Of a stretch of 64,000 bases of DNA, positions 10,530 through 63,325 are shown one piece after another. Both the position numbers and the translations under genes were made by a program. Within the stretch, counting starts at the first letter, position 1, and each line of letters begins with the position of its first letter. The notes under the pieces were generated by a model. It was not told the DNA's origin, did not search any database, and saw nothing but the letters and a program-made list of their open reading frames with translations. Origin of the DNA: Geodermatophilus siccatus (GTDB lineage Bacteria; Actinomycetota; Actinomycetes; Mycobacteriales; Geodermatophilaceae); contig NZ_FNHE01000009.1 in the NCBI RefSeq assembly GCF_900103785.1, positions 62,001 to 126,000 on the forward strand, written 5' to 3'.

Positions 10530-11717
10530 GTGTACCTGCGCCACCTCCAGCTGGGCTCGTTCCGCAACTGGGACCGGGTGGACCTGGCCCTCCGCCCGGG
10601 GCCGACGGTCTTCGTCGGCCGCAACGGCGAGGGCAAGACCAACCTCGTCGAGGCGGTCGGCTACCTGGCCACGATGGGCAGTCACCGGGTCGCCGGTGAC
10701 GCCCCGCTGGTCCGGCAGGGCGCGTCCCAGGCGGTGGTCCGCGCGGCGCTGCGCCGGGAGGACCGCGAGCTGCTGGTCGAGATCGAGATCAACCCGGGCA
10801 GGGCCAACCGGGTGCGGGTCAACCGGGCGCCCCTGGCGCGGCCCCGGGAGCTGCTCGGGCTGGTGAAGTCCGTGCTGTTCGCGCCCGAGGACCTGGTGCT
10901 CGTCCGCGGCGACCCCGCCGAGCGGCGGCGGTTCCTCGACGACCTGCTGGTCAGCCGCACCCCGCGGCTGGCCGGCGTGCGCAGCGACTACGACCGGGTG
11001 CTCAAGCAGCGCAACGCCCTGCTCAAGACCGCCCGGATGGCCCGCGGCAACGCGCTGGCCACGCTCGACGTCTGGGACGGGCACCTCGTCGACCTCGGCG
11101 GGCAGCTGCTCGCCGCGCGGCTGCGGCTGGTCGCCGACCTGGCTCCGCACGTGACCCGCGCCTACGCCGGGGTCGCGGGTGCCGACGCCGCCGTCGCCGC
11201 GCTCGGCTACGCCAGCACCGTGCCGCTGGCCGGGGACGGGACGCCGGTACCGGAGGGGACGACGCTGCCCACGGCCGGGGAGTTCTCGGCCGCGCTGCGC
11301 GAGCGGGTGGCCGAGCGCCGCAACGAGGAGGTCGACCGCGGCATGACGCTGGTCGGCCCGCACCGCGACGACCTGGTCATCTCGCTGGGGTCGATGCCGG
11401 CGAAGGGCTTCGCCAGCCACGGGGAGTCCTGGTCGCTGGCCCTGGCACTGAAGCTGGGCTGTTTCGCGCTGCTGCGGGCCGACGGCGACGAGCCGATCCT
11501 CGTGCTCGACGACGTCTTCGCCACCCTCGACGCCGACCGCCGCGCGGCGCTGGCGGCCGTGGCCCGCTCGGCGGAGCAGTCCCTGGTGACCGCGGCGGTG
11601 CTGGACGACGTCCCGCCGGAGCTGCGCAGCACGGTGGTGCAGGTCGCCGGCGGGCAGGCGGTACCGCTCGACCCGGAGGCCGCCGAGGATGGGGCCGTGC
11701 GGGAGGAGGTCACGTGA
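10530..11717 (+). CDS. recF: DNA replication and repair protein RecF
   Basis: This 395-residue SMC-like ATPase starts at GTG 10530 (MYLRHLQLGSFRNWDRVDL). It has Walker A GRNGEGKTNLVEAV near residue 31, the middle VGPHRDDLVISL, a signature region around SHGESWSLALALKLGC and Walker B EPILVLDDVFATLD. RecF binds gaps and loads RecA with RecOR. Its TGA stop forms a GTGA overlap with the 26-codon mini-ORF at 11714. Confidence 0.95.
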   Translation: MYLRHLQLGSFRNWDRVDLALRPGPTVFVGRNGEGKTNLVEAVGYLATMGSHRVAGDAPLVRQGASQAVVRAALRREDRELLVEIEINPGRANRVRVNRAPLARPRELLGLVKSVLFAPEDLVLVRGDPAERRRFLDDLLVSRTPRLAGVRSDYDRVLKQRNALLKTARMARGNALATLDVWDGHLVDLGGQLLAARLRLVADLAPHVTRAYAGVAGADAAVAALGYASTVPLAGDGTPVPEGTTLPTAGEFSAALRERVAERRNEEVDRGMTLVGPHRDDLVISLGSMPAKGFASHGESWSLALALKLGCFALLRADGDEPILVLDDVFATLDADRRAALAAVARSAEQSLVTAAVLDDVPPELRSTVVQVAGGQAVPLDPEAAEDGAVREEVT

Positions 11718-11794
11718 CCGAGCTGGCGAGGTCACGCGGGGGTGCGGCACGGCCGGGCACGGGGACGACGAGCGTCGGCGAGGAGGAGCCGTGA
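11714..11794 (+). CDS. 26-codon coupled mini-ORF, copy A (repeat family)
   Basis: An 81-nt open frame beginning GTGACCGAGCTGGCG and ending in TGA. Its GTG overlaps the recF stop (GTGA) and its TGA overlaps the dciA GTG (GTGA). The product would be 26 residues, starting MTELARSRGGAARPGT and ending TSVGEEEP. The AGGAGGAG near its end serves as the dciA ribosome-binding site. The same-length element occurs twice more in this window at 39713-39793 (minus) and 63245-63325. Whether the peptide is made is unknown; it may be a mobile repeat that keeps reading-frame coupling. Confidence 0.5.
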   Translation: MTELARSRGGAARPGTGTTSVGEEEP

Positions 11795-12291
11795 CCGAGG
11801 AGCGGCCGGCGCGGCCCAGTGACATCGCGCGCGCGGCGCTGGAGGCGGCGCGCGCGGCCTCGGCGTCCCGGCCGCGCCCCACCCGGCGGCGGATCGCCGG
11901 GCCGAAGCGCAGCTGGAGCGGGCCCCGCCCGGGGGACGACGACCCGCAGCCGCTGGCCCGGCTGGTGGACCACCTCGTCGAGACCCAGGACTGGACCGAG
12001 CACACCAAGGTCGGCGCGGTCTTCGGCCGCTGGTCGGCGCTGGTCGGGCCGGAGATCGCCGCCCACTGCACGCCGCAGACGCTCACCGAGGGCGAGCTGC
12101 TGGTGGTCGCGGAGTCCACCGCGTGGGCCACCCAGCTGCGACTGCTGGCGCCGACGATCCTCGCCAAGCTGCACGCCACGGTCGGCGGGGACGTCGTGAG
12201 CCGGCTGCGCGTTGTCGGTCCGACGGCCCCGAGCTGGAAGAAGGGCCCCCGGTCGGTCCGCGGACGCGGGCCGCGGGACACGTACGGATAG
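11791..12291 (+). CDS. dciA: DciA-family (DUF721) protein
   Basis: A 166-residue protein starting at GTG 11791, with AGGAGGAG upstream. The core GAVFGRWSALVGPEIAAHC, followed by LTEGELLVVAESTAWATQLR, is the DUF721/DciA domain. DciA is the ancestral operator of the replicative helicase DnaB, and in actinobacteria it lies between recF and gyrB. The N-terminal 60 residues are Arg/Ala/Pro-rich and probably disordered. The tail is basic (SWKKGPRSVRGRGPRD). Confidence 0.88.
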   Translation: MTEERPARPSDIARAALEAARAASASRPRPTRRRIAGPKRSWSGPRPGDDDPQPLARLVDHLVETQDWTEHTKVGAVFGRWSALVGPEIAAHCTPQTLTEGELLVVAESTAWATQLRLLAPTILAKLHATVGGDVVSRLRVVGPTAPSWKKGPRSVRGRGPRDTYG

Positions 12292-12364
12292 GGGCCGCCG
12301 CCCGGGGTGGTGGCCCCGGGAGGACGGTGCACATGGGCACGGGGCAGATGGAGACGAGGCAGCG

Positions 12365-13309
12365 ATGAGCAGCCCGCGCGACCGCGACGGTTTCGAGGAG
12401 CGCCCCGACGAGGGCAGCGGCTGGCGCGAGCCCGGCCACCTCGGCGGGGACGGCGGGCAGCCCCCGGCCGACCGGCCCGAGCAGCCGCCGGCCGACCAGC
12501 CGCCGGCCGACCAGCCGCCGGCCGACCGGCCGGGCGGGAGCACCGCCTGGCAGCCGCCGGGCTGGGACCTGCCACCCGCCGCCCCCGACCGCCCGGCGCA
12601 GTCCCCGGCCGCCGGCCCGCAGACGGTGGGCGAGCAGCCCACCCGCGGCGGCCTCTTCGGCAGCCGGCGGCCCCGGCAGCCCAGTGAGCTCGAGCAGGTC
12701 TTCGCCTACCAGGGCGACGCCGTCGGCGCGCAGGGCTGGGCGGTGCAGCAGGGCTGGGCCATCTCCGACGGCACCGCACCGGAGGACGCCGTCCTCGCCG
12801 AGCTGGTGCGCACCGCGCCGGTCCGGGCGACGAAGGACCACCGGCCCGCCGGCGTCATGCGCGGCCGCTACGGCACGCTCGACCTGGTCGCCTTCGACGT
12901 GCTCTACGCCTCCGGCCGCTACGCCGTCCCCGAGTACGCGGTCACCGCCGCCCCGGTGCTGGGCGCGCTGCCGCCGCTGCGGCTGTCGCCGGCCCGCTTC
13001 TGGAAGCACCGCACCGGCGGGCTGGTCCAGGTGCCCAGCGGCGACCCCGCCTTCGACACCCGCTGGGTGCTGCTCGCCGCCGAGGACGGCCCGGCCGCCC
13101 GCGCGCTGGTCGGCGACGCCACGGTGCGCGGGCTGCTGCTGGGCACCGACGACGGCGACGAGTTCTGGACGGTGGCAGGGGCCGACGGAGGTGGGTTGGC
13201 GGGTGGCTACCTGGCCGCGATCCGTCCCGACGGGCACCGGCCGCAGCTGATCGAGCACCACGCCCGGCTGCTGACCGCGCTGGTCAGCGCCCTCGCCCCG
13301 GCCCTCTGA
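12365..13309 (+). CDS. Hypothetical protein with PPADQ repeats
   Basis: The predicted protein is 314 residues, from ATG 12365. The first approximately 110 residues are Pro/Gly/Asp-rich, with four imperfect PPADQ/PPADRP repeats near residues 38-58. The folded part (from about ELEQVFAYQGDAVGAQGWAV) contains WAISDGTAPEDAVLAEL, YGTLDLVAFDVLYASG and RTGGLVQVPSGDPAFDTRWV. These resemble actinobacterial proteins of unassigned function; no catalytic motif is evident. It lies 73 bp after dciA and 13 bp before the ABC exporter, so co-transcription is possible. Confidence 0.75.
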   Translation: MSSPRDRDGFEERPDEGSGWREPGHLGGDGGQPPADRPEQPPADQPPADQPPADRPGGSTAWQPPGWDLPPAAPDRPAQSPAAGPQTVGEQPTRGGLFGSRRPRQPSELEQVFAYQGDAVGAQGWAVQQGWAISDGTAPEDAVLAELVRTAPVRATKDHRPAGVMRGRYGTLDLVAFDVLYASGRYAVPEYAVTAAPVLGALPPLRLSPARFWKHRTGGLVQVPSGDPAFDTRWVLLAAEDGPAARALVGDATVRGLLLGTDDGDEFWTVAGADGGGLAGGYLAAIRPDGHRPQLIEHHARLLTALVSALAPAL

Positions 13310-13322
13310 GCCGCGCGAGTCC

Positions 13323-15098
13323 GTGGCCGAGGAGAGCACCTCCGCGGAGACCGCGGCTCGCGCGACCCTGCGGCAGCTGTGGCCCCTGGTCCGGCCGCAC
13401 CGCCGCCCGCTGGCCGCGGCCGCCGTCCTCTCGCTGGTCGCGGCCGCCGGTGCGCTGGCCCAGCCGGCGCTGGTCGCCCGGGTGATCGAGGCGGTGGGGG
13501 CCGGCCGGGCGCTGCTGCCCGCCGTCGGCCTGCTGGTGGTGGTCCTGCTGGCGTCCTCGGCGCTGGGTGCGGTGCAGGAGTACCTGCTGCAGCGCACGGC
13601 CGAGGGTGTCGTGCTCTCCACCCGGCGGACGCTGGCCGACCGGCTGCTGCGGCTGCCGATCGCCGAGTACGACCGGCGGCGCACCGGCGACCTCATGTCG
13701 CGGGTCGGCGCGGACACCACCCTGCTGCGCGCCACGGTGACCTCCGGGGTCGTCGAGGTCGCCGGCTCCGCGGTGGTCGCGGTGGGCGCGGTGGTGGCGA
13801 TGGCGCTGGTCGACGGGTGGCTGCTGCTGGTCACCGCGGGCTCGGTCGCCGTCGGCCTGGCGGTGGTGGTCTCGGTCGCCCGTGGCGTGCAGCGGCTCTC
13901 CCGCCAGGCGCAGGAGGAGGTCGGCGCGATGACCGCCGCGGTGGAGCGGGCGCTGTCGGCGGTGCGCACCATCCGGGCCAGCGGTGCGACCGCTCGCGAG
14001 GTGGACGTCGTCGCGGCCAGCGCCGGCCGGGCGTACGAGGCCGGCCTGCGGGTGGCCAGGCTGCAGGCGCTGGTCAGCCCGGCCGGGTCGATCGCGGTCC
14101 AGGGCGCGTTCCTCGCCGTCCTCGGCCTGGGCGGCTACCGGGTGGCGACGGGCTCGATCGCCGTCGCCGACCTGGTCGCGTTCATCCTCTACCTGTTCCT
14201 GCTGGTCATGCCGCTGGGCCAGGCGATCGGGGCCTGGACCCAGCTGCAGAGCGGGCTGGGCGCGCTGGCGCGGGTGCAGGAGGTGCTCGCGCTCCAGCCG
14301 GAGGACGACGCGCGGCCCGAGCGGGGTGGGGCGCTCGTCGTCGTCCCCGCGTCGCCGCCGTCCGCGGAGGTCCCGCTGCTGGAGCTGGACGACGTGTCGT
14401 TCCGCTACCCGGACGGCACCGACGTGCTGCACGGGGTCTCGTTCAGCGTGCCGGCCGGCAGCCGGGTGGCGCTGGTCGGGCCGTCGGGGGCGGGCAAGTC
14501 GACCGTGCTGGCGCTCGTCGAGGGCTTCTACCCGCTGACCGGCGGGGCGGTGCGGTGGGCCGGCACCGACGTGCGCGACCTGCCGCGGGCGGGCCTGCGC
14601 GCGCGGCTGGGCTACGTCGAGCAGGAGGCGCCGGTGCTGGCCGGGTCGGTGCGCGACAACCTGCTGCTGGCCGCGCCGGATGCGACCGACCTCGAGCTGT
14701 GGGCAGTGGTGGCCGACGTCGGGCTCACCGACGTGGTGCAGCGCTCGCCGCGCGGGCTCGACGTCCCGGTGGGGGACGACGGCGTGCTGCTGTCCGGCGG
14801 CGAGCGGCAGCGGCTGGCGATCGCGCGCTCGCTGCTGGCCCGCCCGGCGCTGCTGCTGCTCGACGAGCCGACCGCCAGTCTCGACGCCCGCAACGAGGCG
14901 CTGCTGCGCGACACCCTGGCCGCCGCCTCCGCCGACCGGGCGCTGCTGGTGGTCGCGCACCGGCTGTCGACCGTGCTCGACAGCGACCGGATCGTCGTCC
15001 TCGACGCCGGGCGGGTGGTCGCCAGCGGCACCCACGAGGAGCTGGTGGAGGCCAGCCCCCTCTACCGCGAACTGGCGGCCGCCCAGCTGCTGGTGTAG
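13323..15098 (+). CDS. ABC exporter, fused membrane and ATPase domains
   Basis: This 591-residue half-transporter has an N-terminal six-helix domain (about residues 20-320; for example AAAVLSLVAAAGALAQPALV, GSIAVADLVAFILYLFLLVM). The ATPase domain follows: Walker A GPSGAGKST, Q-loop VEQEAPVLAG, signature LSGGERQRLAIARS, Walker B ALLLLDEPTASLD and H-loop VVAHRLS. All residues required for ATP hydrolysis are present. A half-transporter of this type must dimerise. The substrate cannot be read from sequence. GTG start at 13323. Confidence 0.92.
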   Translation: MAEESTSAETAARATLRQLWPLVRPHRRPLAAAAVLSLVAAAGALAQPALVARVIEAVGAGRALLPAVGLLVVVLLASSALGAVQEYLLQRTAEGVVLSTRRTLADRLLRLPIAEYDRRRTGDLMSRVGADTTLLRATVTSGVVEVAGSAVVAVGAVVAMALVDGWLLLVTAGSVAVGLAVVVSVARGVQRLSRQAQEEVGAMTAAVERALSAVRTIRASGATAREVDVVAASAGRAYEAGLRVARLQALVSPAGSIAVQGAFLAVLGLGGYRVATGSIAVADLVAFILYLFLLVMPLGQAIGAWTQLQSGLGALARVQEVLALQPEDDARPERGGALVVVPASPPSAEVPLLELDDVSFRYPDGTDVLHGVSFSVPAGSRVALVGPSGAGKSTVLALVEGFYPLTGGAVRWAGTDVRDLPRAGLRARLGYVEQEAPVLAGSVRDNLLLAAPDATDLELWAVVADVGLTDVVQRSPRGLDVPVGDDGVLLSGGERQRLAIARSLLARPALLLLDEPTASLDARNEALLRDTLAAASADRALLVVAHRLSTVLDSDRIVVLDAGRVVASGTHEELVEASPLYRELAAAQLLV

Positions 15099-15100
15099 CG

Positions 15101-15163
15101 CGATGACCAGCTGACCTGGTCATCGCGGTTCCTGGCTCACCACCAGTGCTGGGCCAGGAACCA
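15101..15163. terminator. Double hairpin between convergent genes
   Basis: Two adjacent inverted repeats. GCGATGACCAG (15101-15111) pairs perfectly with CTGGTCATCGC (15117-15127) around a 5-nt loop. GGTTCCTGGC (15128-15137) pairs with GCCAGGAACC (15154-15163). They lie between the convergent ABC exporter and epimerase genes and could terminate transcription from both sides. Confidence 0.7.
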
Positions 15164-15191
15164 GAGCGGTGAGCCCAGCTGATCGTCGAGG

Positions 15192-16724
15192 TCACGCCGC
15201 GCGGGCGCGTCTCTGGCCCGCGGCGGCGGCCGTCCCCTGCTCCGCGGCGCGGCAGATGTTGCGCACCATCCCGCCGAAGATCGGGCCGTGGAAGGGCACC
15301 AGCACCCACCAGTAGAGGTTGCCGAAGAGCCCGTTCGGCTTGAAGGTCGCGCGTTGCCGCAGCCGGCTGCGTCCGTCCTCCTGTTCCACGTGGAACTCCA
15401 GCCAGGCCAGCCCGGGCAGCCGCATCTCGGCGCGCAGCCGCAGCAGCCGGCCCTCCTCGAGCGCCTCGACCCGCCAGAAGTCCAGGGCGTCGCCGACGTA
15501 GAGGTCCGACGGCGACCGGCGTCCCCGCCGCAGGCCGACCCCGCCGACGGCCCGGTCCAGCCAGCCGCGCACCTCCCAGGCCAGCGGGAACGAGTACCAG
15601 CCGGTCTCCCCGCCGATCCCCTCGACCACCCGCCACAGCGCCTCCGGTGAGGCGGAGGTCTCCCGGGTCTTCTCGTCGAGGTAGAGGGTGCCGCCGGCCC
15701 AGCGGGGGTCGGTGGGCAGCGGGTCCGACGGCGCCCCGGGTGTGGACGCCGAGGACCAGCGGGTGGCCACGGTCTGGTCCTTGACCCGCTGGATCGCCAG
15801 TCGCACCGCCTCGTCGAAGCCGAGCAGCCCCTCCGGCGGGTCCGGGACGTACTGCGCGATGTCGTGCTCGGCGCAGACGACGGTGTTGCGCAGCGACTCC
15901 ACCAGCGGACGGGCGATCGACGCCGGCACGGGCGTGACGACGCCGACCCAGTGGCTCGACAGGCCCGGGCTGAGCACCGGGACGGGCAGGATCCGCCGCC
16001 TGGGCAGCCGGGCCACCGCGGCGAAGCGCTGCATCATCTCCAGGTAGGTCATGACGTCGGGGCCGCCGATGTCGAAGCACCGGTGCACGTCGGCCGGCAG
16101 CGTCGCGCAGCCGACCAGGTAGCGCAGCACGTCGCGGATGGCGATCGGCTGGATCCGGCTGTGCACCCAGCGCGGCGTGACCATGACCGGCAGCCGCTCG
16201 GTCAGGTAGCGCAGCATCTCGAAGGACGCCGACCCCGAGCCGAGCACCACCGCGGCCCGCAGGACGACGGTCGGGACGCCGGAGCCGAGCAGGATCTCGG
16301 CGACCTCGGCGCGCGAGCGCAGGTGCGGGGAGAGCTCCTCGCCCCGGGGCTCCAGGCCGCCGAGGTAGACCAGCCGGCCCACGCCGGCCTCCCGCGCGGC
16401 GCGCGCCACCACCCGCGCCGTCCGCCGGTCGGTCTCCTCGAACTCCTTGCCGGTGCCCAGCGCGTGGACCAGGTAGTAGACGACGTCGACCCCGGCGCAG
16501 GCCGCCGCGACCGCCTCGGCGTCGCCCGCGTCGGCCCGGGCGATCTCGACCTGACCGGCCCACGGGTGGTCGCGCAGCCGCTCGGGCGATCGGGTCATCA
16601 CCCGCACCCGGTGCCCGGCGGCGAGCAGCTCGGGCACGAGCCGCCCGCCGATGTATCCGGTGGCCCCGGTGACGAGGCAGGTCTTCGCCGTGGGGGTGGA
16701 GGTGGTGCCGTCGGTCTCGGCCAT
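15192..16724 (-). CDS. NAD(P)-binding epimerase-like protein with DUF2867 C-terminal domain
   Basis: This 510-residue protein starts at ATG 16724 with MAETDGTTSTPTAKTCLVTG. The N-terminal Rossmann domain has TGATGYIGGRLVPELLAAGH, RADAGDAEAV and VVYYLVHALG, typical of atypical/extended SDR enzymes related to NmrA and complex I NDUFA9-type proteins. From about residue 350 (GGTLYLDEKTRETSASPEAL) a SRPBCC/DUF2867-like domain follows and ends LFGNLYWWVLVPFHGPIFGG. Substrate unknown. A perfect parS palindrome lies inside the gene (15383-15396), encoding the FHVE residues. Confidence 0.85.
   Translation of the reverse strand: MAETDGTTSTPTAKTCLVTGATGYIGGRLVPELLAAGHRVRVMTRSPERLRDHPWAGQVEIARADAGDAEAVAAACAGVDVVYYLVHALGTGKEFEETDRRTARVVARAAREAGVGRLVYLGGLEPRGEELSPHLRSRAEVAEILLGSGVPTVVLRAAVVLGSGSASFEMLRYLTERLPVMVTPRWVHSRIQPIAIRDVLRYLVGCATLPADVHRCFDIGGPDVMTYLEMMQRFAAVARLPRRRILPVPVLSPGLSSHWVGVVTPVPASIARPLVESLRNTVVCAEHDIAQYVPDPPEGLLGFDEAVRLAIQRVKDQTVATRWSSASTPGAPSDPLPTDPRWAGGTLYLDEKTRETSASPEALWRVVEGIGGETGWYSFPLAWEVRGWLDRAVGGVGLRRGRRSPSDLYVGDALDFWRVEALEEGRLLRLRAEMRLPGLAWLEFHVEQEDGRSRLRQRATFKPNGLFGNLYWWVLVPFHGPIFGGMVRNICRAAEQGTAAAAGQRRARAA
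15383..15396. other. parS: parS site 3 (inside a coding region)
   Basis: A perfect GTTCCACGTGGAAC palindrome, identical to site 2, embedded in the epimerase/DUF2867 gene and read there as part of the codons for E-F-H-V-E-Q. It is 13.8 kb from the parAB-proximal pair. Confidence 0.9.
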
Positions 16725-16856
16725 GTCCCGAGTGTCCGGCGGGAACGCCCCGCCCGCTCGGGTCGCGGACCACCCCTGCACCCGCCACGCTGGGCGCACG
16801 TCCCGGAGACCAACGGCGGTCCCGTCCACCGGCACGAGTCGAGCAGGGGGTCCCCC

Positions 16857-18272: not shown

Positions 18273-20672
<2,400 letters not shown>

Positions 20673-20740: not shown

Positions 20741-20774
20741 CCCCCCTGCGCACCCACTCGTGGAGAACTGAACC

Positions 20775-39251: not shown

Positions 39252-39716
39252 TCACGAGCGCAGCTCCAGCGCGGTCTGCCCGATGCGGATCGGCTGACCC
39301 GGCGCGACGAGCAGCGGCCCCTGGACGCGCTGCTGGTCGAGGTAGGTGCCGTTGGTGGAGCCCAGGTCCTCGACGTACCACTGGCCGCCGCGGTTGGTCA
39401 GCCGGGCGTGCCGGGAGCTGGCGAAGTCGTCGGTGAGCACCAGGGTCGAGTCGTCGGCGCGGCCGATGAGGATCGGCTGGTCGCCCAGCGTGATCTTCGT
39501 GCCGGTGAGCGGGCCGGCGGTGACGACGAGGGTCTTGGGGGCGCCGCGGGTCTTCTTCTTCCCCGGGGCGGCGGCCCGCGGCGGTACCGAGGCCACCCGT
39601 CCGGCGCGGCCGCCGAACAGGTCGGCCCGGACCACCCGGAAGGCGGCGAAGATGAACAGCCACAACAGCAGGAGGAAGCCGAAGCGGAAGATCTGCAGGA
39701 CGATCTCGGCCGTCAC
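39252..39716 (-). CDS. fhaB: FHA-domain protein FhaB
   Basis: A 154-residue protein with an N-terminal membrane segment (IVLQIFRFGFLLLLWLFIFA) and a C-terminal FHA domain: ILIGRADDSTLVLTDDFASS RHARL in parts, then YVEDLGSTNGTYLDQQ. GR, SSRH and NGT residues that bind phosphothreonine are intact. It lies between pstP and the mini-ORF copy B, whose TGA overlaps its GTG start. Confidence 0.94.
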   Translation of the reverse strand: MTAEIVLQIFRFGFLLLLWLFIFAAFRVVRADLFGGRAGRVASVPPRAAAPGKKKTRGAPKTLVVTAGPLTGTKITLGDQPILIGRADDSTLVLTDDFASSRHARLTNRGGQWYVEDLGSTNGTYLDQQRVQGPLLVAPGQPIRIGQTALELRS

Positions 39717-39793
39717 GCGTCCGCCTCGCTGGCGCTCGTCGGCCGCGTGCCGGGGCGTGCTCTGCTCATGCGTGACCTCGCGAGCTCGGTCAC
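39713..39793 (-). CDS. 26-codon coupled mini-ORF, copy B (repeat family)
   Basis: An 81-nt frame on the minus strand, from GTG 39793 (overlapping the fhaA stop as GTGA) to TGA 39713 (overlapping the fhaB GTG). The 26-residue reading starts MTELARSRMSRARPGT and ends PTSASEADA. Exactly the same length as copies A and C. See the finding on this element. Confidence 0.5.
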   Translation of the reverse strand: MTELARSRMSRARPGTRPTSASEADA

Positions 39794-53784: not shown

Positions 53785-53802
53785 GCCCGGTCCCCGCAGG
53801 GC

Positions 53803-54441: not shown

Positions 54442-54568
54442 GTCCCGCATCCTGCCCCCGGCCGGCGAGACCCGCCCGGCCCGCCTCCGGGTGAGCCGCT
54501 CACCCGTCCGGGTGAGGGGACCCCTGTCGACGCTGACCCTGTCCTGGCGCGCTGCCGACACCCTGGGC

Positions 54569-54796
54569 ATGAGCGCCCCCACCCTCGCCGCCGCCACCGT
54601 CGTCGCCGCCCGCAGCCGCCCGCACGGCCCGACGGCCGCCCTGTGGCACGCCGTCGAGCTGCACCGACCGACCGCCGAGGTCGACGGCGCCTGCGAGCTC
54701 ACCCTCTGCGGCTCGCTGGCCCGCGTCGACGTCGAGCAGCCGTGGCCCGCCCCGGCCCGCGACGTCTGCCCCGCCTGCGTCGTCCTCAGCCGCTGA
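54569..54796 (+). CDS. Small Cys-pair protein, function unknown
   Basis: A 75-residue frame from ATG 54569 (MSAPTLAAATVVAARSRPHG). Two Cys pairs are suggestive of zinc binding: CELTLCG near residue 44 and CPACVVLSR at the C-terminus. I do not recognise the family. The 89-bp tandem array starts 28 bp after the stop. Confidence 0.6.
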   Translation: MSAPTLAAATVVAARSRPHGPTAALWHAVELHRPTAEVDGACELTLCGSLARVDVEQPWPAPARDVCPACVVLSR

Positions 54797-54823
54797 CACG
54801 GTGACACTGCGATCCTCCGGATC

Positions 54824-55190
54824 GCACCGCGGCCAGGTGCCGTCCCCGACCGCCGTGGAGCCCAGCCCGTCCCTGCTCGGGGGAGCCTCCGGCCCCCCGC
54901 TCCCAGGGACCCGCACCGCGGCCAGGTGCCGTCCCCGACCGCCGTGGAGCCCAGCCCGTCCCTGCTCGGGGGAGCCTCCGGCCCCCCGCTCCCAGGGACC
55001 CGCCCCGCGGCCAGGTGCCGTCCCCGACCGCCGTGGAGCCCAGCCGGCCACTCGTCGGGGACCCTCCGGGCCCCACTCCTCAAGGCCGCCATACCCGCGG
55101 CCGGGGTGCCGTCCCCGACCGCCGTGGAGCCCGGCCGGCCACTCGTCGGGGACCCTCCGGGCCCCACTCCTCCCGGCCGTCCCCGCGGCC
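54824..55190. repeat. 89-bp tandem repeat array, four units
   Basis: Units start at about 54824, 54913, 55002 and 55092, with spacings of 89, 89 and 90 bp and a partial start near 55180. Each begins like CACCGCGGCCAGGTGCCGTC, then CCCGACCGCCGTGGAGCCC. Units 1-2 carry CCTGCTCGGGGGAGCCTCCG in the middle, whereas units 3-4 carry CCACTCGTCGGGGACCCTCC. It lies between the small Cys-pair gene and the LuxR gene end. It is not CRISPR: no unique spacers. Confidence 0.85.
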
Positions 55191-55219
55191 ACCCTCAGCA
55201 GGCTCTGGCCGGGACCGCG

Positions 55220-57769
55220 CTAGGCGGGCTCCTCGGCCAGCTCGGCCCGCAGCCGGGCCAGCAGGTCCGACCGGGTGCCCGCGCCCAGCCGCTGGCGCAT
55301 CCGGGAGACGTGGTGCTCCACCGTCTTCGCGGAGATGTAGAGCCGCCCGCCGATCTCGCGGTAGGTCTGCCCGGCCACGACCAGCCGGGCCACCTCCCGC
55401 TCCCGGTCGCTGAGCGTCCCGGTGCCCACCGCCGGGGGCGAGGGCTGGGAGGTGCCGTGTCCGGCCGGCCGCGGCACCGGCACCGCCGGTGCGGTCTCGC
55501 AGCCGGCGCTGTCGGCCAGTGACCGGGCGCAGGCCAGCAGCACCGAGCGGGCCCGCTGCTCGGTCGCCCGCGCCGCGGCCTGGCCGGCCAGCCGCGACCC
55601 GTCCCAGCCCAGCCCCACCGCGGTGAGCTGCTCGGCCGCGGCCACCACCTCGTCGGGGTCGACCTCCCCCGACAGCACCTGCAGCCAGGTCCGCCCGGCC
55701 CGCGCCACCGTGGCCGCGTAGGGGCTGGTCCGTGCCGCCGCGACCAGCGCCGCCGCGTGCGGCCGCAGCCCCTCGGGGTCGTCGGCCAGGATCGCCGCCT
55801 GCGCGCCGCTCCAGTGCAGCGAGGTCGCCCACAGCTCCGGGTCGCCCAGTCGCGCCAGCAACGCCTGGGCCTCGGCCAGGTGCGGGCGCAGCCGGTCGCC
55901 GTCCCGCAGCCGTGCCGCGGCCACCACCAGCTCGCCCAGCGGCAGCAGGGTGAACAGGTCCACCGGGTGGCGGACCACCGCCTCGCGCGCCCGCACCCAC
56001 GCGCGCACCAGGGCCGGCAGGTCGCTGCTGCGCCGCGCCAGCCCCACCTCCAGGGCCTGCAGGACGACGTCGTCGCGCGGCTCGAGCGGGCTGCCGCCCT
56101 CCTGCGCCCGCGCCATCTGCTCCCGCGCCTGGGTGAACCGGCCGGCCAGCATCGCGATCCAGGCCAGCAGCAGCCGGTGCCGGCGCCGGCACGGGGGGCC
56201 ACCGAGGTCGGCGTCGACCGCCCGCTGCAGCACCGACTCGGCCACGCCCAGCTCCCCGCTGTGCAGCGCGACCAGTGCGGCGAGCGCGGCGGGGGAGTCG
56301 ACGAGCAGCGCGGTGCGGCCCACCGGCTCGAGCAGCGCGGCGGCGCGGGTCAGCGTCGACAGCGCGGCGGCGATGTCCGCGGCGGCGCCGTCCCCTGTGC
56401 GCAGCGACTGGAGCACCCCCTGCGCGGTCAGCTCCTCGCTCACCGACAGCACCGTGGGCACCTCGCAGGCGGTGCGCGCCGCCTCGAGGGCGGCGGCTGC
56501 CGCGGCGGGCTCGCCGGTCGCCAGCAGCGCCAGCGCCGCCGACCCCGCGCGCTCGGCCCCGGCCAGCCGGCACAGCCCCGCGGCGCGGGACAGCAGCCCC
56601 CGCTGGGCCAGGACGGCCGCGGTCACGCCGGCCGCTCGCGCCCGGTCCGGGGCGGTCTCGTCGGCCAGCGCGGTGTCGGCCCACTGCAGCGCGCCGTCGA
56701 GGTCCCCGGCCAGCGCGGCGGCCTGCGCGCGCCGGCCGGCCAGCGACGCCACCGGCGCCCCGCTGCGCGCCGCCTCGCCGAGCAGCTCCGCGGCCAGTGC
56801 CGGGTCGTCGGTGAGCGCCGCCTCGCCGTGCCGCTCGAGCAGCCGGGCGGCGTGCCGGTCCCGCACCCGCTCGGCGGCCAGCCGCCGGGCCAGCTCGACC
56901 GGTTCGTCACCGCGCTCGACCAGCAGCGCCAGCAGCTGGCGGCGGACCCGCCGCGTCACGTCGGGCGGGGTGACCGCCAGCAGCGCCCGGGCCGCCAGCG
57001 GCACCACCTCGCCGGTGCCCAGCAGCAGCCCGGTGGCCCGGCCGGCCTCCAGCAGGTCGACCGCCCGGTCCGGCGACACCCCGAGCAGCTCGCCCAGCAC
57101 GTCCTCGTCCAGCGGTGCCCCGGCCGCGAGGGCGTGCAGCAGCGCGCGGGTCTCCTCCGCCACGGCCGCCAGGTCGGCCCGGACCCGGTCGGTGACCTCG
57201 TCGGGCACCACGAGCCGCCCCGGCTGCCCGGGGACGCCGCCGCGTCGGCCCAGCGCACGCAGCAGCGGGACGGCGAACGCGGGCAGCCCGCCGGTCTGGG
57301 TCAGGACGGCGTCGGCGAGCGGGGGCGCCAGGGCCTCGCCCAGCAGCTCCCGGGCCCACTCGCGCAGCCGGGCCCGGTCGGCGTGCCCGAGGACGACGGT
57401 GCGCCGGGCGGGACCGACCTCGGCCAGCAGCGCGCCCAGTGGGGCCGGCCGCGGCCACGGGCGCTGCGCCAGCACCACGCGGGCGGCCGGTGAGCGCAGC
57501 AGCGCGCCCAGGCGGGCCACGTCGGCGTCGGACAGGTGGTGCGCGTCGTCGACGAGGACCACCACGGGTCCGGGCAGCGCGGCCGGGTCCTCCGGGACGG
57601 CGTCCAGCACCGCCAGCCCGGCCCGCTCGTGCGCCGTCGCCAGCTCGGCCAGCAGCAGCGACTTCCCGGTCCCCCCGGGGCCCACCACGGTCACGACGGC
57701 GGGCACCCGGCCGGTGGAGGCGGTCAGCTCGCGCACCAGCTCCGGGCCCCACCCGGTCGCCGCGCTCAC
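55220..57769 (-). CDS. LuxR-family transcriptional regulator with N-terminal ATPase (LAL-type)
   Basis: An 849-residue regulator. GTG 57769 overlaps the Hsp70-like stop (GTGA). Walker A GPGGTGKSLLLAEL near residue 32 and a Walker-B-like VVVLVDDAHHL are followed by helical repeats through about residue 740, and a C-terminal HTH: LSDREREVARLVVAGQTYRE, then ISAKTVEHHVSRMRQRLG. This is the large ATP-binding LuxR (MalT-like) layout. The inducing signal is unknown. It is co-translated with the Hsp70-like protein. Confidence 0.92.
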   Translation of the reverse strand: MSAATGWGPELVRELTASTGRVPAVVTVVGPGGTGKSLLLAELATAHERAGLAVLDAVPEDPAALPGPVVVLVDDAHHLSDADVARLGALLRSPAARVVLAQRPWPRPAPLGALLAEVGPARRTVVLGHADRARLREWARELLGEALAPPLADAVLTQTGGLPAFAVPLLRALGRRGGVPGQPGRLVVPDEVTDRVRADLAAVAEETRALLHALAAGAPLDEDVLGELLGVSPDRAVDLLEAGRATGLLLGTGEVVPLAARALLAVTPPDVTRRVRRQLLALLVERGDEPVELARRLAAERVRDRHAARLLERHGEAALTDDPALAAELLGEAARSGAPVASLAGRRAQAAALAGDLDGALQWADTALADETAPDRARAAGVTAAVLAQRGLLSRAAGLCRLAGAERAGSAALALLATGEPAAAAAALEAARTACEVPTVLSVSEELTAQGVLQSLRTGDGAAADIAAALSTLTRAAALLEPVGRTALLVDSPAALAALVALHSGELGVAESVLQRAVDADLGGPPCRRRHRLLLAWIAMLAGRFTQAREQMARAQEGGSPLEPRDDVVLQALEVGLARRSSDLPALVRAWVRAREAVVRHPVDLFTLLPLGELVVAAARLRDGDRLRPHLAEAQALLARLGDPELWATSLHWSGAQAAILADDPEGLRPHAAALVAAARTSPYAATVARAGRTWLQVLSGEVDPDEVVAAAEQLTAVGLGWDGSRLAGQAAARATEQRARSVLLACARSLADSAGCETAPAVPVPRPAGHGTSQPSPPAVGTGTLSDREREVARLVVAGQTYREIGGRLYISAKTVEHHVSRMRQRLGAGTRSDLLARLRAELAEEPA

Positions 57770-59739
57770 GCCGGCCCCTCTGCCGAGGCAGCCGGTTCGG
57801 TCGCAGGGGCGTCGGTCGCAGGGGCGTCGGTCGAGGGGGCGTCGGTCGGCTCGGGCACCGGCGCCGGCGTCGGGTCCACGGGGGCCTGGGAGGCCGGCGG
57901 CTGCTGGGCCGGCGGGTCCGGCGTGAAGGGAGCAGGGACCGGCGGCCGGGACACGGGCGGTCGGGAGACCGGCGGCTGGGCGGCCGTCGGTGGGGGGACC
58001 GGGGGCGGCGAGGTGGTCGGCTGCCCGTTCCCGGTCGGCTCCTCGACGACGGGAGCCGGGACGGACGGGGACGGTCGCCCCGCCGTCCCGGGCGCCGGGG
58101 CACCCGGTGACGCCGTGCCGGACGGGGTCCCGCCGGCGGCGGCCCGGGAGGGGCTGGGGGCGGACGCCGTGGTCCCGGGTGCGGTGCGGTCCCTCGTCGA
58201 CGCCGCGCTGCCGGAGGCGGACGGCGTGCTGCTGCGGGCCGCGGTGGCGATGGCGGCGGCCAGGCTGGTCCGGGGGGAGCCCGTGGGGTCGGCCGCCGTC
58301 CGCGACGCGCCGCCCCCGGAGCTCTCCGCGGCTCGTGCGGTGGAGCCGCCCACGGCCTTCTCGGCGGCACGCGCGGTGGAGCCGCCGCCCACGATGGCCG
58401 TCCCGCGGGCGATGACGCTGCCGTCGTCGGCCCCGGAGGCGGACTGTCCCGTGGGGCCGGGCGGCAGGACGGCGTCGAACAGCCCGGCCGCCGCGGGCCC
58501 CAGCAGGAGCAGCCCGAGCGCGAGGCCGGCCACGACCGCGCCGCGGCGCACCCGCCCGCTCCGCCGCGCGGCAGGCCCGGTGGCCGCGCGGGTAGGGGAC
58601 CCCGGACGGTGCCGCCCCCGAGGCGTGCGCGGCCGAGGGAGCACCGGCTGCGGGTCCACGGCGTCGGACGGCACGTCCGGCAGCTCGGTGGGCGGCGCGG
58701 CGGCGGGTGCCTCTCGCGGCAGGGCCTCGGCTGCCAGCGCCTCGGCCGCCAGCGCGGCCGCACCGAGGGCAGGGGTCAGTGCGGGGTCCCCGCTCACGAC
58801 CAGCGGCCGGCCCAGCTCGTCGGAGAGGACCTCGGCGACCAGCGGCACCCGCACGCCGCCACCGGCCAGCACCACGGCGTCCAGGTCGGCGGGCTCCAGG
58901 CCCGCGGCCGCCACCGTGGCGGCGAGCGCCTCGGCCGACTCCCGCACCGGCCCGGCCAGCACCTCGTCGAGCTCCTCGCGGGTGAGCCGGACCGGTCCGT
59001 CCGGCCCGTCGGTCCCGATCCGGACCACGGTGGCCGTCGACAGCGCCTCCTTGGCCGCCCGGCAGGCTCCCCGCAGCGCCCGGGCGTCCCCGGGGGGTGC
59101 GCCCAGGCAGTCGAGGACGTGGGCGAGGACCTCGTCGTCGACGTCCCGCCCACCCCAGGGCAGCGGCGCCGGCGGGGCGGCGAGGTGCACCAGCGGCCGC
59201 TCCGGGCCGGGGCCCACCACGGCGGTGTCCAGCGACCCGGCGCCCAGGTCGTAGACGGCGACCGTCGGCTCGGGCGCCAGGTCCCCGGCCGCGACGTGCG
59301 CGGCGACGGCCGCGACGGCGGAGGACACCAGGGAGAAGCGCGGGACGCCGGCGGCGGTGAGCGCGCCGGCCAGGGCGGTGCAGCGGTGGCCGGCCCAGGA
59401 CGGCGGCACGGTCACCACCGTCCACGCGTCGGGCCGGCCCTCCTGCTCGGCGGCGAGCCCCCGCACGTGCTGGACGACGTCGGCCACCAGCTCGGCGGCC
59501 GGTACCGCGCGACCTGCGGCGTACACCGGCACCGGGTCGCCCACCCGCGCCACCAGGGGCGCGCGGCCCGCCGTCCCGTCGGCCGGGACGAGGGCGACCC
59601 GCCCGTCGTCCCCGACCGCTGCCGCGACCGGTCCCTCGCCGAGCGGCAGCGGCACCGCCGTGCCGTCCGGCCCGCAGACCGCCGCGGAGACCGCACCGCC
59701 CCCGACGTCGATCCCCACCCCGTACTCGCCGATGCGCAC
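57766..59739 (-). CDS. Hsp70-like actin-fold protein with membrane anchor and PT-rich tail
   Basis: The predicted protein is 657 residues. GTG 59739 gives VRIGEYGVGIDVGGGAVSAA, the phosphate-1 loop. Further ATPase motifs: VTVPPSWAGHRCTALAGAL, VAVYDLGAGSLDTAVVG and DAVVLAGGGVRVPLVAEVLS. There is no chaperone substrate-binding domain. After about residue 420 comes one membrane span (GAVVAGLALGLLLLGPAAAG) and a long Ser/Thr/Pro-rich region (for example PPVSRPPVSRPPVPAP) that would lie outside. It probably senses or links rather than folds; this is inferred. It is divergent from the IniB-like gene. Confidence 0.88.
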   Translation of the reverse strand: MRIGEYGVGIDVGGGAVSAAVCGPDGTAVPLPLGEGPVAAAVGDDGRVALVPADGTAGRAPLVARVGDPVPVYAAGRAVPAAELVADVVQHVRGLAAEQEGRPDAWTVVTVPPSWAGHRCTALAGALTAAGVPRFSLVSSAVAAVAAHVAAGDLAPEPTVAVYDLGAGSLDTAVVGPGPERPLVHLAAPPAPLPWGGRDVDDEVLAHVLDCLGAPPGDARALRGACRAAKEALSTATVVRIGTDGPDGPVRLTREELDEVLAGPVRESAEALAATVAAAGLEPADLDAVVLAGGGVRVPLVAEVLSDELGRPLVVSGDPALTPALGAAALAAEALAAEALPREAPAAAPPTELPDVPSDAVDPQPVLPRPRTPRGRHRPGSPTRAATGPAARRSGRVRRGAVVAGLALGLLLLGPAAAGLFDAVLPPGPTGQSASGADDGSVIARGTAIVGGGSTARAAEKAVGGSTARAAESSGGGASRTAADPTGSPRTSLAAAIATAARSSTPSASGSAASTRDRTAPGTTASAPSPSRAAAGGTPSGTASPGAPAPGTAGRPSPSVPAPVVEEPTGNGQPTTSPPPVPPPTAAQPPVSRPPVSRPPVPAPFTPDPPAQQPPASQAPVDPTPAPVPEPTDAPSTDAPATDAPATEPAASAEGPA

Positions 59740-60029
59740 AGGCCCCCCTGACCACACGAGTCCCCGGGTCCGACTGCGGACCGGTCGGGGTCGCATCGCA
59801 ACGTATGTCCCTGACGTCCGCCCTGTCCCGCGTGTCACGGGCGCCGCTCCGCAGCGCACGGTGAGGAGGGGGCGACACCCCGCAGCCCCTAACGGAGCGT
59901 CAGCGGTCATCCCCCATACGGGTCCGGCGATGGGGGGCGTCTCCCCGATGCCGGGGAACGGCGGCCGGGCGTGGACTGCGCCGCAACAGCCGGCCGACGG
60001 TGGGCGGCTCGAGACCCAGGAGTGCAGCC
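59740..60029. promoter_or_regulatory. Divergent control region of the ini-like module
   Basis: A 290-bp gap between the Hsp70-like and IniB-like starts. It contains an inverted repeat CCCCCAT (59911-59917) / ATGGGGG (59930-59936) with a 12-nt spacer, a possible operator for the adjacent LuxR-type regulator; this link is inference. A GAGACCCAGGAG stretch precedes the IniB-like ATG. No gene is seen. Confidence 0.5.
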
Positions 60030-61304
60030 ATGTCGACCGTCGCGAGCACGCTGCTCGACTTCATCCTCGACCTGTTCCGCGACCCGGAGAAGGCCGCGGC
60101 CTACGAGGCCGACCCGCAGGCCGCGCTGGACGCGGCCGGCCTGTCCGACAGCACGCCGGCGGACGTGGCCGACCTCGCGCCGATGGTGTCGGACTACGCC
60201 ACCGTCGGCGGCTGGAGCGGCGGTGGCTCCCACGGGGGCGGTTCCCACGGGGGCGGTTCCCACGGCGGCGGCCGGGACGACCACGACTCCGGTGGGGGTG
60301 GCCGCGGGGACTCCTGCGACGCCGACGAGGACCGGGGCGGACACCACCACCCGAGGCCGGTCGACGACGACGAGGACGAGCACTCCTCCGGCGGCGTCGC
60401 GCCGGTGGACCGCGACGAGTGCGACGACGACGAGGACGAGGGCCAGGCCGGGAGCGGCCACTCCCACGCCCCCGCGCCGGCCGGGGGCACCGAGACGGTG
60501 GTCATCACCCACCTGCAGGAGGTGCACTACTCGCACACCGAGACGACCGTCGAGATCGACGCCTCGCACAGCATCTGGGTCAGCGGCGACGCCCAGGCGA
60601 TCTTCGGCGACGTCCGGGGCGACGTCACGCAGATCGACAACGAGGGCGGCATCGTCGCCGGTGACGACGTCGAGGACTCCTCGGTCGACAACAGCGACCA
60701 CTCGGTGAGCGACTCCTACGACACCGATGTCGACGTGGACGTCGACATCGACGACAGCCCCGTCAACACCGGTGGCGACCAGGCCGTGGACAGCTTCAAC
60801 GGCAACGAGGACAACGACGTCGTCGCCGACCGCGGCGGCCAGGTCGGCGACAACACCTCCGTGCGGGTGGACGACGTGACCGTGGTCGAGGACTCGGAGA
60901 ACGTCGGCAACGACAACTCGGTGCGGATCGACGACTCGTTCAACGGCAACGACCTCTCGCAGGACAACGACGGGGTCGACGACTCGTTCAACGGCAACGA
61001 GGACATCGGGAACGACCACTCGGACAACTCCGAGACGGACAACAGCGTCAACGACTCGTTCAACGGCAACGACCTGTCCGACGACGACGGCGTGGACGAC
61101 TCGTTCAACGGGTCGCTGAACGGCAACGACCTGTCCGACGACGACGGGGTCGACAGCTCGTTCAACGGCAACGACCTGTCGGACAACTCCGAGACCGACA
61201 ACAGCGTCGAGGACACCGGCAACAGCTACACCGAGAACTCGGTCGACGTCGACGAGGACTACCACGTCGACGCGCAGGACACGGGGGACGTCACGGTCGG
61301 CTGA
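60030..61304 (+). CDS. IniB-like protein with His/Gly and Asp-rich repeats
   Basis: A 424-residue protein from ATG 60030. Residues 1-57 (MSTVASTLLDFILDLFRDPE, PQAALDAAGLSDSTP) match the IniB N-terminal domain. Residues 62-82 are GSHGG repeats, 92-141 are an Asp/Glu/His-rich stretch with three Cys, and 255-395 contain six F-N-G-N/S units (near 255, 303, 319, 343, 358 and 377), with DSFNGNDLSDDDGVDDSF as the pattern. No signal peptide is obvious. The protein is strongly acidic and probably binds cations. It precedes two dynamin-like genes as IniB does IniA/IniC. Confidence 0.8.
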   Translation: MSTVASTLLDFILDLFRDPEKAAAYEADPQAALDAAGLSDSTPADVADLAPMVSDYATVGGWSGGGSHGGGSHGGGSHGGGRDDHDSGGGGRGDSCDADEDRGGHHHPRPVDDDEDEHSSGGVAPVDRDECDDDEDEGQAGSGHSHAPAPAGGTETVVITHLQEVHYSHTETTVEIDASHSIWVSGDAQAIFGDVRGDVTQIDNEGGIVAGDDVEDSSVDNSDHSVSDSYDTDVDVDVDIDDSPVNTGGDQAVDSFNGNEDNDVVADRGGQVGDNTSVRVDDVTVVEDSENVGNDNSVRIDDSFNGNDLSQDNDGVDDSFNGNEDIGNDHSDNSETDNSVNDSFNGNDLSDDDGVDDSFNGSLNGNDLSDDDGVDSSFNGNDLSDNSETDNSVEDTGNSYTENSVDVDEDYHVDAQDTGDVTVG

Positions 61305-61317
61305 CCCCCGCGGTACA

Positions 61318-61357
61318 CCGGGTCCCGGTCGCTGCACGGGGGGCGACCGGGACCCGG
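61318..61357 (+). terminator. Hairpin between the IniB-like gene and the first dynamin-like gene
   Basis: CCGGGTCCCGGTCGC (61318-61332) pairs perfectly with GCGACCGGGACCCGG (61343-61357) over a 10-nt loop, 14 nt after the IniB-like stop. A 15-bp stem; may be a terminator or attenuator lowering expression of the downstream GTPases. Confidence 0.75.
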
Positions 61358-61424
61358 CTGTCCGCGGTTGTCCCCCGCAGGGAGCCCCGGGTGGTAGGAC
61401 CGGGACGTCAGGAGGTGTGTGCCC

Positions 61425-63248
61425 GTGGGAACGTCAGCGCAGCTGCTCGACCGGGCGGGAGCGCTCGCGGAGGTCTGCGGGCGGCCGGACCTGCAGCGCC
61501 GGCTGCTCCAGGCCCGGGCCCGCAGCGCCGACCCGCGGGTCCGCGTCCTCGTCGTCGGCGAGCCCAAGCAGGGCAAGAGCTCGCTGGTCAACGGCCTGGT
61601 CGGCGCCCCGGTCTGCCCGGTGGCCGACGACGTGGCCACCGTCGTCCCCACCGTGGTGCGCGCCGGGGAGGCGCCGCGCGCCAGCCTGGTCCTGGCCACG
61701 GGGCCGGGTGGGATCGGTGGTGGCTCGCCGGACGACGACGGGCCGACCGAGCGGGTGCCGGTCCCGGTCGACCAGGTGGCCGCCCGCGTCACCGGCGAGG
61801 GGACCGACCGGCTGGTGCAGGCCGAGGTGGAGCTGCCCCGCCGGCTGCTCGACGGGCTGGAGCTGGTCGACACCGCCGGCGTGGGCGGCGTGGGCGCGCA
61901 GCGGGCGCTGCGCACCGTCGACCTGCTGCCCACCGCGGACGCCGTCCTGGTGGTGTCCGACGCCAGCCAGGAGTTCACCGCCCCGGAGATGGCCTTCCTC
62001 GAGCAGGCCGCCGCCCTGTGCCCGACGGTCGTCTGCGTGCTGACCAAGACCGACGCCTGCCCGCACTGGCGCGAGGTGGCCGAGCTCGACCGGGGCCACC
62101 TCGCCCGCCGGGGCATCGAGGCGCCGCTGTTCGCCGTGTCCGCCGCCCTCGCCCAGCTGGCGGTGCAGCACCGCGACCGGGAGCTGCACGAGGAGTCCGG
62201 GATCGGCGCCCTGGTCACCCACCTGCGCCGCGAGGTCGTCGACCGCGCTGAGGTGCTCACCCGCCGCGCGCTGGTGCACGACCTGCGCGCGGTCACCGAG
62301 CACCTCTCCCTGGCGGTGCGCACCGAGCTGGCCGGCCTGGAGGACCCGTCCGCACGCGAGGAGCTGGTGCGCGGGCTCGAGCAGGCCCGGGCCGCCGCCG
62401 ACGACCTGCGCCGCCGCTCGTCCCGCTGGCAGCAGGTGCTCACCGACGGCGTCACCGACCTCGTGGCCGACATCGACTTCGACCTGCGCGACCGCTCCCG
62501 GGTGGTGGTCCGCGAGGCCGAGGAGGCGATCGACGCCCAGGACCCCGGCCCGATGTGGCCCGAGCTGTCCGAGTGGCTGGACCGGCGCATCGCCGCTGCG
62601 GTCGCCGACAGCTACGTCTGGGCCGAGCAGCGTTCGGAGTGGCTCGCCGAGCGGGTCATCGAGCAGTTCGCCCGGGACGGCGGCGGTGCGGTCCCCGCGT
62701 TGACCGTCGGCGCCGCCGGTGAGGCGCTGGCCGGCCTGGTGGAGCTGCCGACGGTCGACGACGGCGCGATGACGCTGCGCGAGCGGACCCTCATCGGGCT
62801 GCGCGGCTCCTACACCGGCGTCCTCATGACCGGGCTGGTCACCAGCCTGGCCGGGATGGCGATCATCAACCCGGTCTCGCTGGCCGCGGGCATCCTGCTC
62901 GGGCGCAAGGCCTACCGCGACGACCAGCAGCAGCGCCTGCAGCGACGCCGGTCGGAGGCCAAGGCCGTGGTCCGGCGGCACCTCGACGAGGTGGTGTTCC
63001 AGGTCGCCAAGCACCTCAAGGACCGGCTCCGCACCGTCTCCCGCACCCTGCGCGACCTGATCACCGACACCGCCGAGGAGATGTCCCGGTCGCTGGCCGA
63101 CGCGGTCGCCGCCGCCCAGCGCGCCACCCGGGAGGCCACCGCCGAGCGCGACGCCCGCATCCGCTCGCTGCGCCAGCGGCGCGACCAGCTCGACCGGCTG
63201 GCCGCCGACGTCCGCGCCCTGGAGCGGGCCGCGGTGGCGGCTCCGTGA
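61425..63248 (+). CDS. Dynamin-like GTPase (IniA-type)
   Basis: The predicted protein is 607 residues. GTG 61425 is chosen because GGAGG (61411-61415) is 9 nt away; GTG 61419 is also in frame. GTPase motifs: VVGEPKQGKSSLVNGL (G1), LVDTAGVGGVGAQRALR (G3) and VLTKTDACPHW (G4). Helical middle domain, then a hydrophobic segment (LMTGLVTSLAGMAIINPVSL) suited to membrane insertion, then a coiled-coil end (AERDARIRSLRQRRDQLDRL). Dynamin-like proteins remodel or repair membranes. Its stop overlaps mini-ORF C. Confidence 0.9.
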   Translation: MGTSAQLLDRAGALAEVCGRPDLQRRLLQARARSADPRVRVLVVGEPKQGKSSLVNGLVGAPVCPVADDVATVVPTVVRAGEAPRASLVLATGPGGIGGGSPDDDGPTERVPVPVDQVAARVTGEGTDRLVQAEVELPRRLLDGLELVDTAGVGGVGAQRALRTVDLLPTADAVLVVSDASQEFTAPEMAFLEQAAALCPTVVCVLTKTDACPHWREVAELDRGHLARRGIEAPLFAVSAALAQLAVQHRDRELHEESGIGALVTHLRREVVDRAEVLTRRALVHDLRAVTEHLSLAVRTELAGLEDPSAREELVRGLEQARAAADDLRRRSSRWQQVLTDGVTDLVADIDFDLRDRSRVVVREAEEAIDAQDPGPMWPELSEWLDRRIAAAVADSYVWAEQRSEWLAERVIEQFARDGGGAVPALTVGAAGEALAGLVELPTVDDGAMTLRERTLIGLRGSYTGVLMTGLVTSLAGMAIINPVSLAAGILLGRKAYRDDQQQRLQRRRSEAKAVVRRHLDEVVFQVAKHLKDRLRTVSRTLRDLITDTAEEMSRSLADAVAAAQRATREATAERDARIRSLRQRRDQLDRLAADVRALERAAVAAP

Positions 63249-63325
63249 CCGAGCTCGCGAGTCCACGCGTGGGCAGGGCACCGTCGGTCACGACGCCGAC
63301 GAGCGCCAGCGAGGAGGCCTCGTGA
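63245..63325 (+). CDS. 26-codon coupled mini-ORF, copy C (repeat family)
   Basis: An 81-nt frame starting GTGACCGAGCTCGCGAGTCC. Its GTG overlaps the IniA-like stop and its TGA (63323-63325) overlaps the IniC-like GTG. The product would begin MTELASPRVGRAPS and end PTSASEEAS. Same length as copies A and B. Carries GAGGAGG near its end as ribosome site for the next gene. Confidence 0.5.
   Translation: MTELASPRVGRAPSVTTPTSASEEAS

Follow-up and report, generated by a model that had tools for sequence, protein, structure and literature searches.

What are three mini open reading frames (mini-ORFs) of identical length doing between neighbouring genes, each sharing GTGA with the stop codon before it and with the start codon behind it? 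The question arises in a 64,000-nt stretch of Geodermatophilus siccatus, hereafter the window (NZ_FNHE01000009.1, positions 62,001–126,000, forward strand; assembly GCF_900103785.1). The copies lie at 11714–11794 (+), 39713–39793 (−) and 63245–63325 (+). A sequence-only reading had placed them exactly there, each with 81 nt from GTGA to GTGA and an open frame of 26 codons, and had taken them either for a mobile repeat or for a true micropeptide. The analysis presented here gives good support to the view that they are copies of a non-autonomous 77-bp mobile element of the MIRU type (mycobacterial interspersed repetitive units, reportedly described by Supply et al. in 1997). Moreover, within the Geodermatophilaceae two short internal segments of the element match the three bases beside its insertion point far more often than chance. 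Element positions are numbered 1–81, with GTGA at 1–4 and 78–81, and target bases are numbered from 82. The parts of the three copies are as follows.

11714–11717, + strand: copy 1, left NTGA; here the recF stop overlaps what used to be the dciA start and is now that of the mini-ORF
11718–11794, + strand: copy 1, 77-bp body, element positions 5–81; the GTGA at its end is the dciA start
11750–11756, + strand: copy 1, putative guide segment, positions 37–43 (CGG C CGG); flank CCG, reverse-complement segment a full match, same-sense segment matching at two of three bases
11780–11786, + strand: copy 1, element-carried GAGGAGG resembling a Shine–Dalgarno (SD) sequence
39790–39793, − strand: copy 2, left NTGA at the fhaA stop
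39713–39789, − strand: copy 2, element body; the GTGA at its end is the fhaB start
39751–39757, − strand: copy 2, putative guide segment, positions 37–43 (CGC C CCG); flank CGG, reverse-complement segment a full match, same-sense segment matching at two of three bases
63245–63248, + strand: copy 3, left NTGA at the IniA-like stop
63249–63325, + strand: copy 3, element body; the GTGA at its end is the start of the IniC-like gene
63281–63287, + strand: copy 3, putative guide segment, positions 37–43 (CCG T CGG); flank CCG, both segments full matches

Exact matches to the 17-nt start motif of the element (GTGACSGAGCTSGCGAG) in the window are confined to these three copies. When three mismatches were allowed the motif matched 7 times against 4.48 expected, and is by itself no outlier. 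A search of the window against Rfam at gathering thresholds returned three tRNAs and nothing else.

Empty sites and the point of insertion

Orthologous sites that lack the element are found in congeners, which supports the earlier suggestion that a mobile repeat has adapted to the junctions between genes. No copy is present at the recF/dciA junction in 25 loci from 24 congeners (a set that leaves out G021). By inspection, 18 of these loci have NTGA at the dciA start (e.g. GAGGAGGTGAC-GTGACCGAGGAG in G013) and the remaining 7 read GTGNCTGA. Of 12 congeners compared at iniA/iniC, ten are copy-free, all with NTGA at the start; G013 has three tandem copies and G003 one shortened copy. At fhaA/fhaB a full copy was found in four of 24 congeners. 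That of G003 sits in the same place as in G. siccatus. In G012, G022 and G023 a spacer precedes the copy, which lies at the start codon of fhaB; an overlapping upstream stop is therefore not required. Several further congeners carry shortened GTGA[GC]CGA.. remnants at this junction (window 39713–39793; loci L241, L242, L245, L247, L250 and L257), and the spot therefore seems to have been hit repeatedly, the copies then decaying.

A wider comparison used 24 sites of the G. siccatus genome, picked by hand and mostly with unusual targets; for 23 of them a comparison with G003, G009, G013, G016 and G041 was possible. At site C20:647415 four empty congeners read ATGA, and two occupied genomes have ATGA on the left and GTGA on the right. 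The right GTGA is thus most simply carried by the element, and at this one informative site the proposed duplication of a GTGA target by a 77-bp insertion is not borne out. At C30:27935, a heterotypic site, the empty state is GTGAC in two congeners; the occupied left ends carry G and the right ends go on with C, and in G009 the left end carries T with a compensating A18. Taken together, the two sites assign the left N to the target, position 5 to the element and position 82 to the target again. The exact joined bond lies within TGA and cannot be placed more finely.

Insertion thus occurs at an NTGA containing a start codon. The right end of the element brings an SD-like GAGGAGG (positions 67–73) and a new GTGA, which leave the downstream gene with both a ribosome-binding site and a start codon. 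The original start now opens a short ORF, in most cases ending on the new start (−4 overlap). In 65 of 74 copies the right GTGA opens an ORF of at least 100 codons, compared with 48% of 268 control GTGAS sites in the window.

Two internal segments often match the target

Covariation was tested on 109 distinct Geodermatophilaceae sites with 5000 permutations (4000 for conditional tests). Positions 41–43 were the full reverse complement of target bases 82–84 in 59 sites (permutation mean 15.8), and positions 37–39 were a full same-sense copy of the same bases in 55 (mean 13.1); the permutation maximum was 28 for each. Both segments matched in 37 sites and at least one in 77. Of 2,556 window pairs, these two stood out: their excesses were 43.1 and 41.8, and no other exceeded 15.1. 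The same positions emerged from mutual information across 202 aligned copies of mixed families, where the strongest pairs included 37–82 (identical), 43–82, 42–83 and 41–84 (complementary) and 5–18. In 112 mixed-family sites there were 66 reverse-complement and 58 same-sense full matches against means of 16.6 and 13.3, in sets that overlap the 109 sites and are no independent replication. The analyses of near-pristine copies, covariation z scores and duplexes used 111 sites, two of them from other families (L182, Pseudonocardia; L195, Solihabitans). The 109-site tests, run without these two, had the same outcome as the 111-site version.

Each segment also follows the flank when the other is held fixed: the same-sense segment at positions 82 and 83 (0/4000 each) and 84 (90/4000), the reverse complement at 83 and 84 (0/4000 each) and marginally at 82 (228/4000). 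Given the flank, the two segments are unlinked at 82 (462/4000) and 83 (2146/4000). Several rare targets are accompanied by matching rare segments. It is well supported statistically that in Geodermatophilaceae the element has two target-matching segments, each tied largely independently to the target.

Nineteen of the 24 hand-picked sites have a readable empty congener, and by inspection the empty site shows the same trinucleotide as the G. siccatus copy at 12 of these. At site 77, for example, three empty congeners read GTC and the segments GTC C GAC. Site 50 presents two such cases: G003, G013 and G016 have the flank GCA with GCA C TGC, and the empty G041 reads GCA; G000 has the flank CCA with CCA C CGG, and the empty G009 reads CCA. 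Matches to unusual targets (CCT, GCC, TCG, GTG, CCC) are also present already in some near-pristine copies. The relation between matching and divergence, taken over 112 mixed-family sites, is a weak negative trend (Spearman −0.18, p = 0.057).

Proposed guide-directed insertion

The best single explanation of these data is that the segments direct insertion, a reading on which confidence and doubt are about evenly balanced. Positions 37–39 and 41–43 would act as guides; a nucleic-acid copy of the element would base-pair to the two target strands next to NTGA, and a putative recombinase supplied in trans would join the element at the paired site. Start codons would be the sites seen because the element's own SD sequence and GTGA repair the damage there, insertions elsewhere being lost. 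A fuller version is more tentative: the 77-bp element may be little else than a dual-strand guide with two ends, an RNA or single-stranded copy of which pairs with the two strands of the bases following NTGA and steers a trans-acting recombinase to gene starts, where SD sequence and GTGA make good the damage.

Several observations weigh against guide-directed insertion. Neither segment matches in 32 of the 109 sites, and at position 84 the segments are also linked to each other (9/4000). At 7 of the 19 readable sites the empty congeners have a different trinucleotide, and in the youngest third of copies full matches are limited to 19/37 for the reverse-complement and 21/37 for the same-sense segment. 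At sites 69 and 74 segment and flank change together in partly decayed orthologues, which points to upkeep after insertion; at site 27 the flank is altered and the segment is not. The rule holds only weakly for 56 copies from other families, with 18 same-sense matches against a mean of 11.5 (77/5000), and the reverse-complement signal is absent (16 against 13.0, 861/5000). No enzyme has come to light either. The 77-bp element itself is without a recombinase gene. Y1 transposase (PF01797) was found in none of 26 genus genomes, compared with 5 of 14 control genomes. IS110 (DEDD) recombinase exceeded the cut-off in 18 of the 26, by inspection with no tie to copy number; it had no match in 7, including G016 with 52 copies and G022 with 32, is broken in G. 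siccatus, and in the 94-copy G012 is present only as a fragment below the cut-off. Lastly, at a threshold of E ≤ 1e-4 the element was absent from all of 30 IS110 loci examined.

If guides do direct insertion, the element would represent a new programmable integration system of very small size, able to land on start codons and yet spare the gene. MIRU-type repeats would then be guide-directed start-codon transposons, with a natural diversity of reprogrammed guides. MIRUs have long been used for typing, and the way they move is left unexplained in the available excerpts of PMC12548453, PMC3914561 and PMC12065434. With as many as 94 copies in a genome, clean empty sites and target-matching segments, this soil genus makes the question of their movement testable.

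Alternative explanations of the matching

The chief rival, a serious one though we consider it rather unlikely, is that a MIRU-type element inserts by other means and that matching arises afterwards through selection on an mRNA hairpin. Positions 41–51 would pair with 74–84 and close the downstream start, and only ribosomes ending the mini-ORF would open it (translational coupling). The element's own right end (74–76) indeed pairs with 49–51, and in the 111-site set the stem pairs 76–49, 75–50 and 74–51 covary. Positions 0 and 23 also covary, weakly. The largest permuted z in this pair scan was 5.08 in 60 permutations, a value inflated by near-invariant columns, and the weaker single pairs are no proof alone. 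Duplexes of 41–51 with 74–84 are stronger with the real flanks than with permuted ones in the same set (mean −11.52 against −10.04 kcal/mol), and the joint changes of segment and flank in some orthologues fit such selection, that of site 69 falling at a synonymous position, the third base of codon 2. However, a hairpin leaves unexplained the same-sense copy at 37–39, which follows the flank with 41–43 fixed. At site 22 three occupied genomes retain the same-sense match with hairpin pairing incomplete. The pristine copies that already match, and a match that does not rise with divergence, also speak against later selection.

It is improbable that templated mutation (quasi-palindrome correction or template switching in replication) has perfected inverted repeats of no function. 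Such a process does turn arbitrary sequences mutually complementary, and the localised joint changes at 38, 42 and 83 in the old copies of sites 69 and 74 are of the kind it would leave. However, the arms are three bases long and some pristine copies match. Moreover, given the flank, the segments are linked to each other at 84 and unlinked at 82 and 83, an order that a chain of corrections would not be expected to produce.

A third possibility, to which we give very little credence, is that the repeat is an unremarkable MIRU-like one, its apparent guides being no more than a reflection of frequent gene starts (GTGACC, GTGAGC) and of two subfamilies. CCG and GCG flanks do predominate, and two subclasses account for part of the position-82 signal. 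However, with subclass and base 82 both fixed, bases 83–84 still match in 71/109 and 62/109 sites against means of 38.6 and 34.5 (0/5000), and several rare targets occur with equally rare matching segments.

The micropeptide envisaged by the sequence-only reading, translated and under selection, is scarcely credible: most 81-nt copies do keep the 26-codon frame open, but in-frame pN/pS is 1.48, compared with 0.86 and 0.77 in the shifted frames, variation shows no third-position excess, and frame-breaking lengths are tolerated, with 8 of 19 length variants keeping the frame, near the one third expected by chance. The frame looks inherited rather than selected as a peptide.

Comparison with known systems

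The sequence-only reading knew of no description of the element. The architecture, however, is that of MIRUs. Searches of the openly licensed literature gave no account of the element in Geodermatophilus or of its sequence, nor any of MIRU-like repeats elsewhere. In the available excerpts, MIRUs appear mobile, lie at start codons and have an internal ORF coupled to the next gene at −4 nt (PMC12548453); they measure 46–101 bp, occupy 41 loci in one genome and vary in tandem copy number (PMC3914561, PMC12065434). The present element is likewise a short repeat (77 bp) at tens of chromosomal loci (82 copies), in tandem at some of them with a spacing of 76–77 nt. It too inserts at start codons, with an internal ORF that overlaps the downstream start by 4 nt, here with frame-breaking length variants as well, and it too appears mobile, as judged from empty orthologous sites and variable copy number. 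It differs in belonging to another genus, and the likeness drawn here is one of architecture. The target-matching segments at 37–39 and 41–43 in Geodermatophilaceae sites are new; for MIRUs, the excerpts of PMC12548453, PMC3914561 and PMC12065434 do not mention any.

In the bridge RNA loop of IS110 elements, as the excerpts of PMC11208160 and PMC11208158 describe it, the 5′ side pairs with the bottom strand and the 3′ side with the top strand, the core being read by both. The present element resembles this in having covarying segments for both target strands (in Geodermatophilaceae; weakly in other families). However, the scheme of a left guide for the left target and a right guide for the right target does not apply, both segments reading 82–84, to the right of the insertion point. 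Unlike IS110/IS1111, moreover, the element is 77 bp long, lacks a recombinase gene and has no copy at the 30 IS110 loci.

IS200/IS605 and REP/RAYT elements insert beside a fixed tetranucleotide without target duplication, and their junctions base-pair in cis with internal segments. Insertion beside a tetranucleotide without duplication is shared by the present element (sites C20:647415 and C30:27935), as is pairing in cis of junctions with internal segments. It departs from these systems in that its pairing runs across the insertion point, the Y1 HUH transposase was found in none of the 26 genus genomes, and orientation relative to replication is only mildly biased. Leading-strand copies made up 46 of 71 sites in G041 and 11 of 15 in G014, if the origin is placed where the record begins and the terminus halfway along it.

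Copy number, distribution and variants

With up to two mismatches, the start motif occurs at 96 places in the G. siccatus genome (44 + 52) compared with 15 for a reversed control. A sequence-only profile built from 26 copies found 82 copies in this 5.2-Mb genome and 4–94 per genome in 24 congeners, both at E ≤ 0.01. An exact 22-mer of the element occurs in at least 112 stretches; the matches listed are mainly from Geodermatophilus, Blastococcus and Modestobacter, and also include Pseudonocardia, Kutzneria, Sciscionella, Solihabitans, Nocardioides and others. The 22-mer occurs once in the record of a Woesearchaeota metagenome-assembled genome (L152) with the rest of the element absent, probably by chance or contamination. 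Across the order, 91 of 397 genomes had a match at E ≤ 1e-5, 72 of them in the family Geodermatophilaceae by inspection count. One genome of family f15 had 55 matches at E ≤ 0.001 to a diverged subtype. This expansion outside the family, in genome G167 (GTGAGCGAGCTTGCGAGCGAACCATTCAACACAGC..), has some left ends that read GCGAGC or GCGGGC instead of GTGAGC. Its loci are:

L349, L360, L366, L370, L374, L377 and L488–L523: diverged subtype in G167

The right end was recognised in 74 of the 82 G. siccatus copies. The constant length supposed from the three window copies is found in 55 of these (81 nt), and the other 19 range from 75 to 108 nt. GTGA at both ends is likewise usual and not universal: left ends read GTGA in 66 of the 82 copies and ATGA in 7, right ends GTGA in 69 and ATGA in 5, with none recognised in 8. 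Some copies stand at start codons without an overlapping upstream stop. Two subclasses exist, GTGACC..GGTCAC and GTGAGC..GCTCAC, and among 157 further copies of mixed families the 5–18 pair is formed in 152 (94 C-G, 58 G-C). A default consensus structure of 26 copies gave weak end-to-end pairing and almost no covariation.

A longer variant, about 105–108 nt where complete, has an extra G/C-rich, hairpin-like stretch in its right half (e.g. CTCCCGCTTGCGGGGGAC) and is a second subtype of the element. It occurs at:

C20:564405–564506 in G. siccatus (L021, L089): longer variant
L100: longer variant
L174: longer variant
site 59 in G041: longer variant

No longer autonomous version was noticed on inspection of partial profile matches, a dedicated search for one not having been made. 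Tandem arrays of 2–4 near-identical units are seen at L153, L116, L166 and L266, and such arrays are likely to serve as variable-number markers for strain typing in Geodermatophilaceae. At L016/L090 (C14:4511), L154 and L162 the left halves of elements seem continuous with the reading frame of a gene, as if the mini-ORF had been turned into the new N-terminus of the protein.

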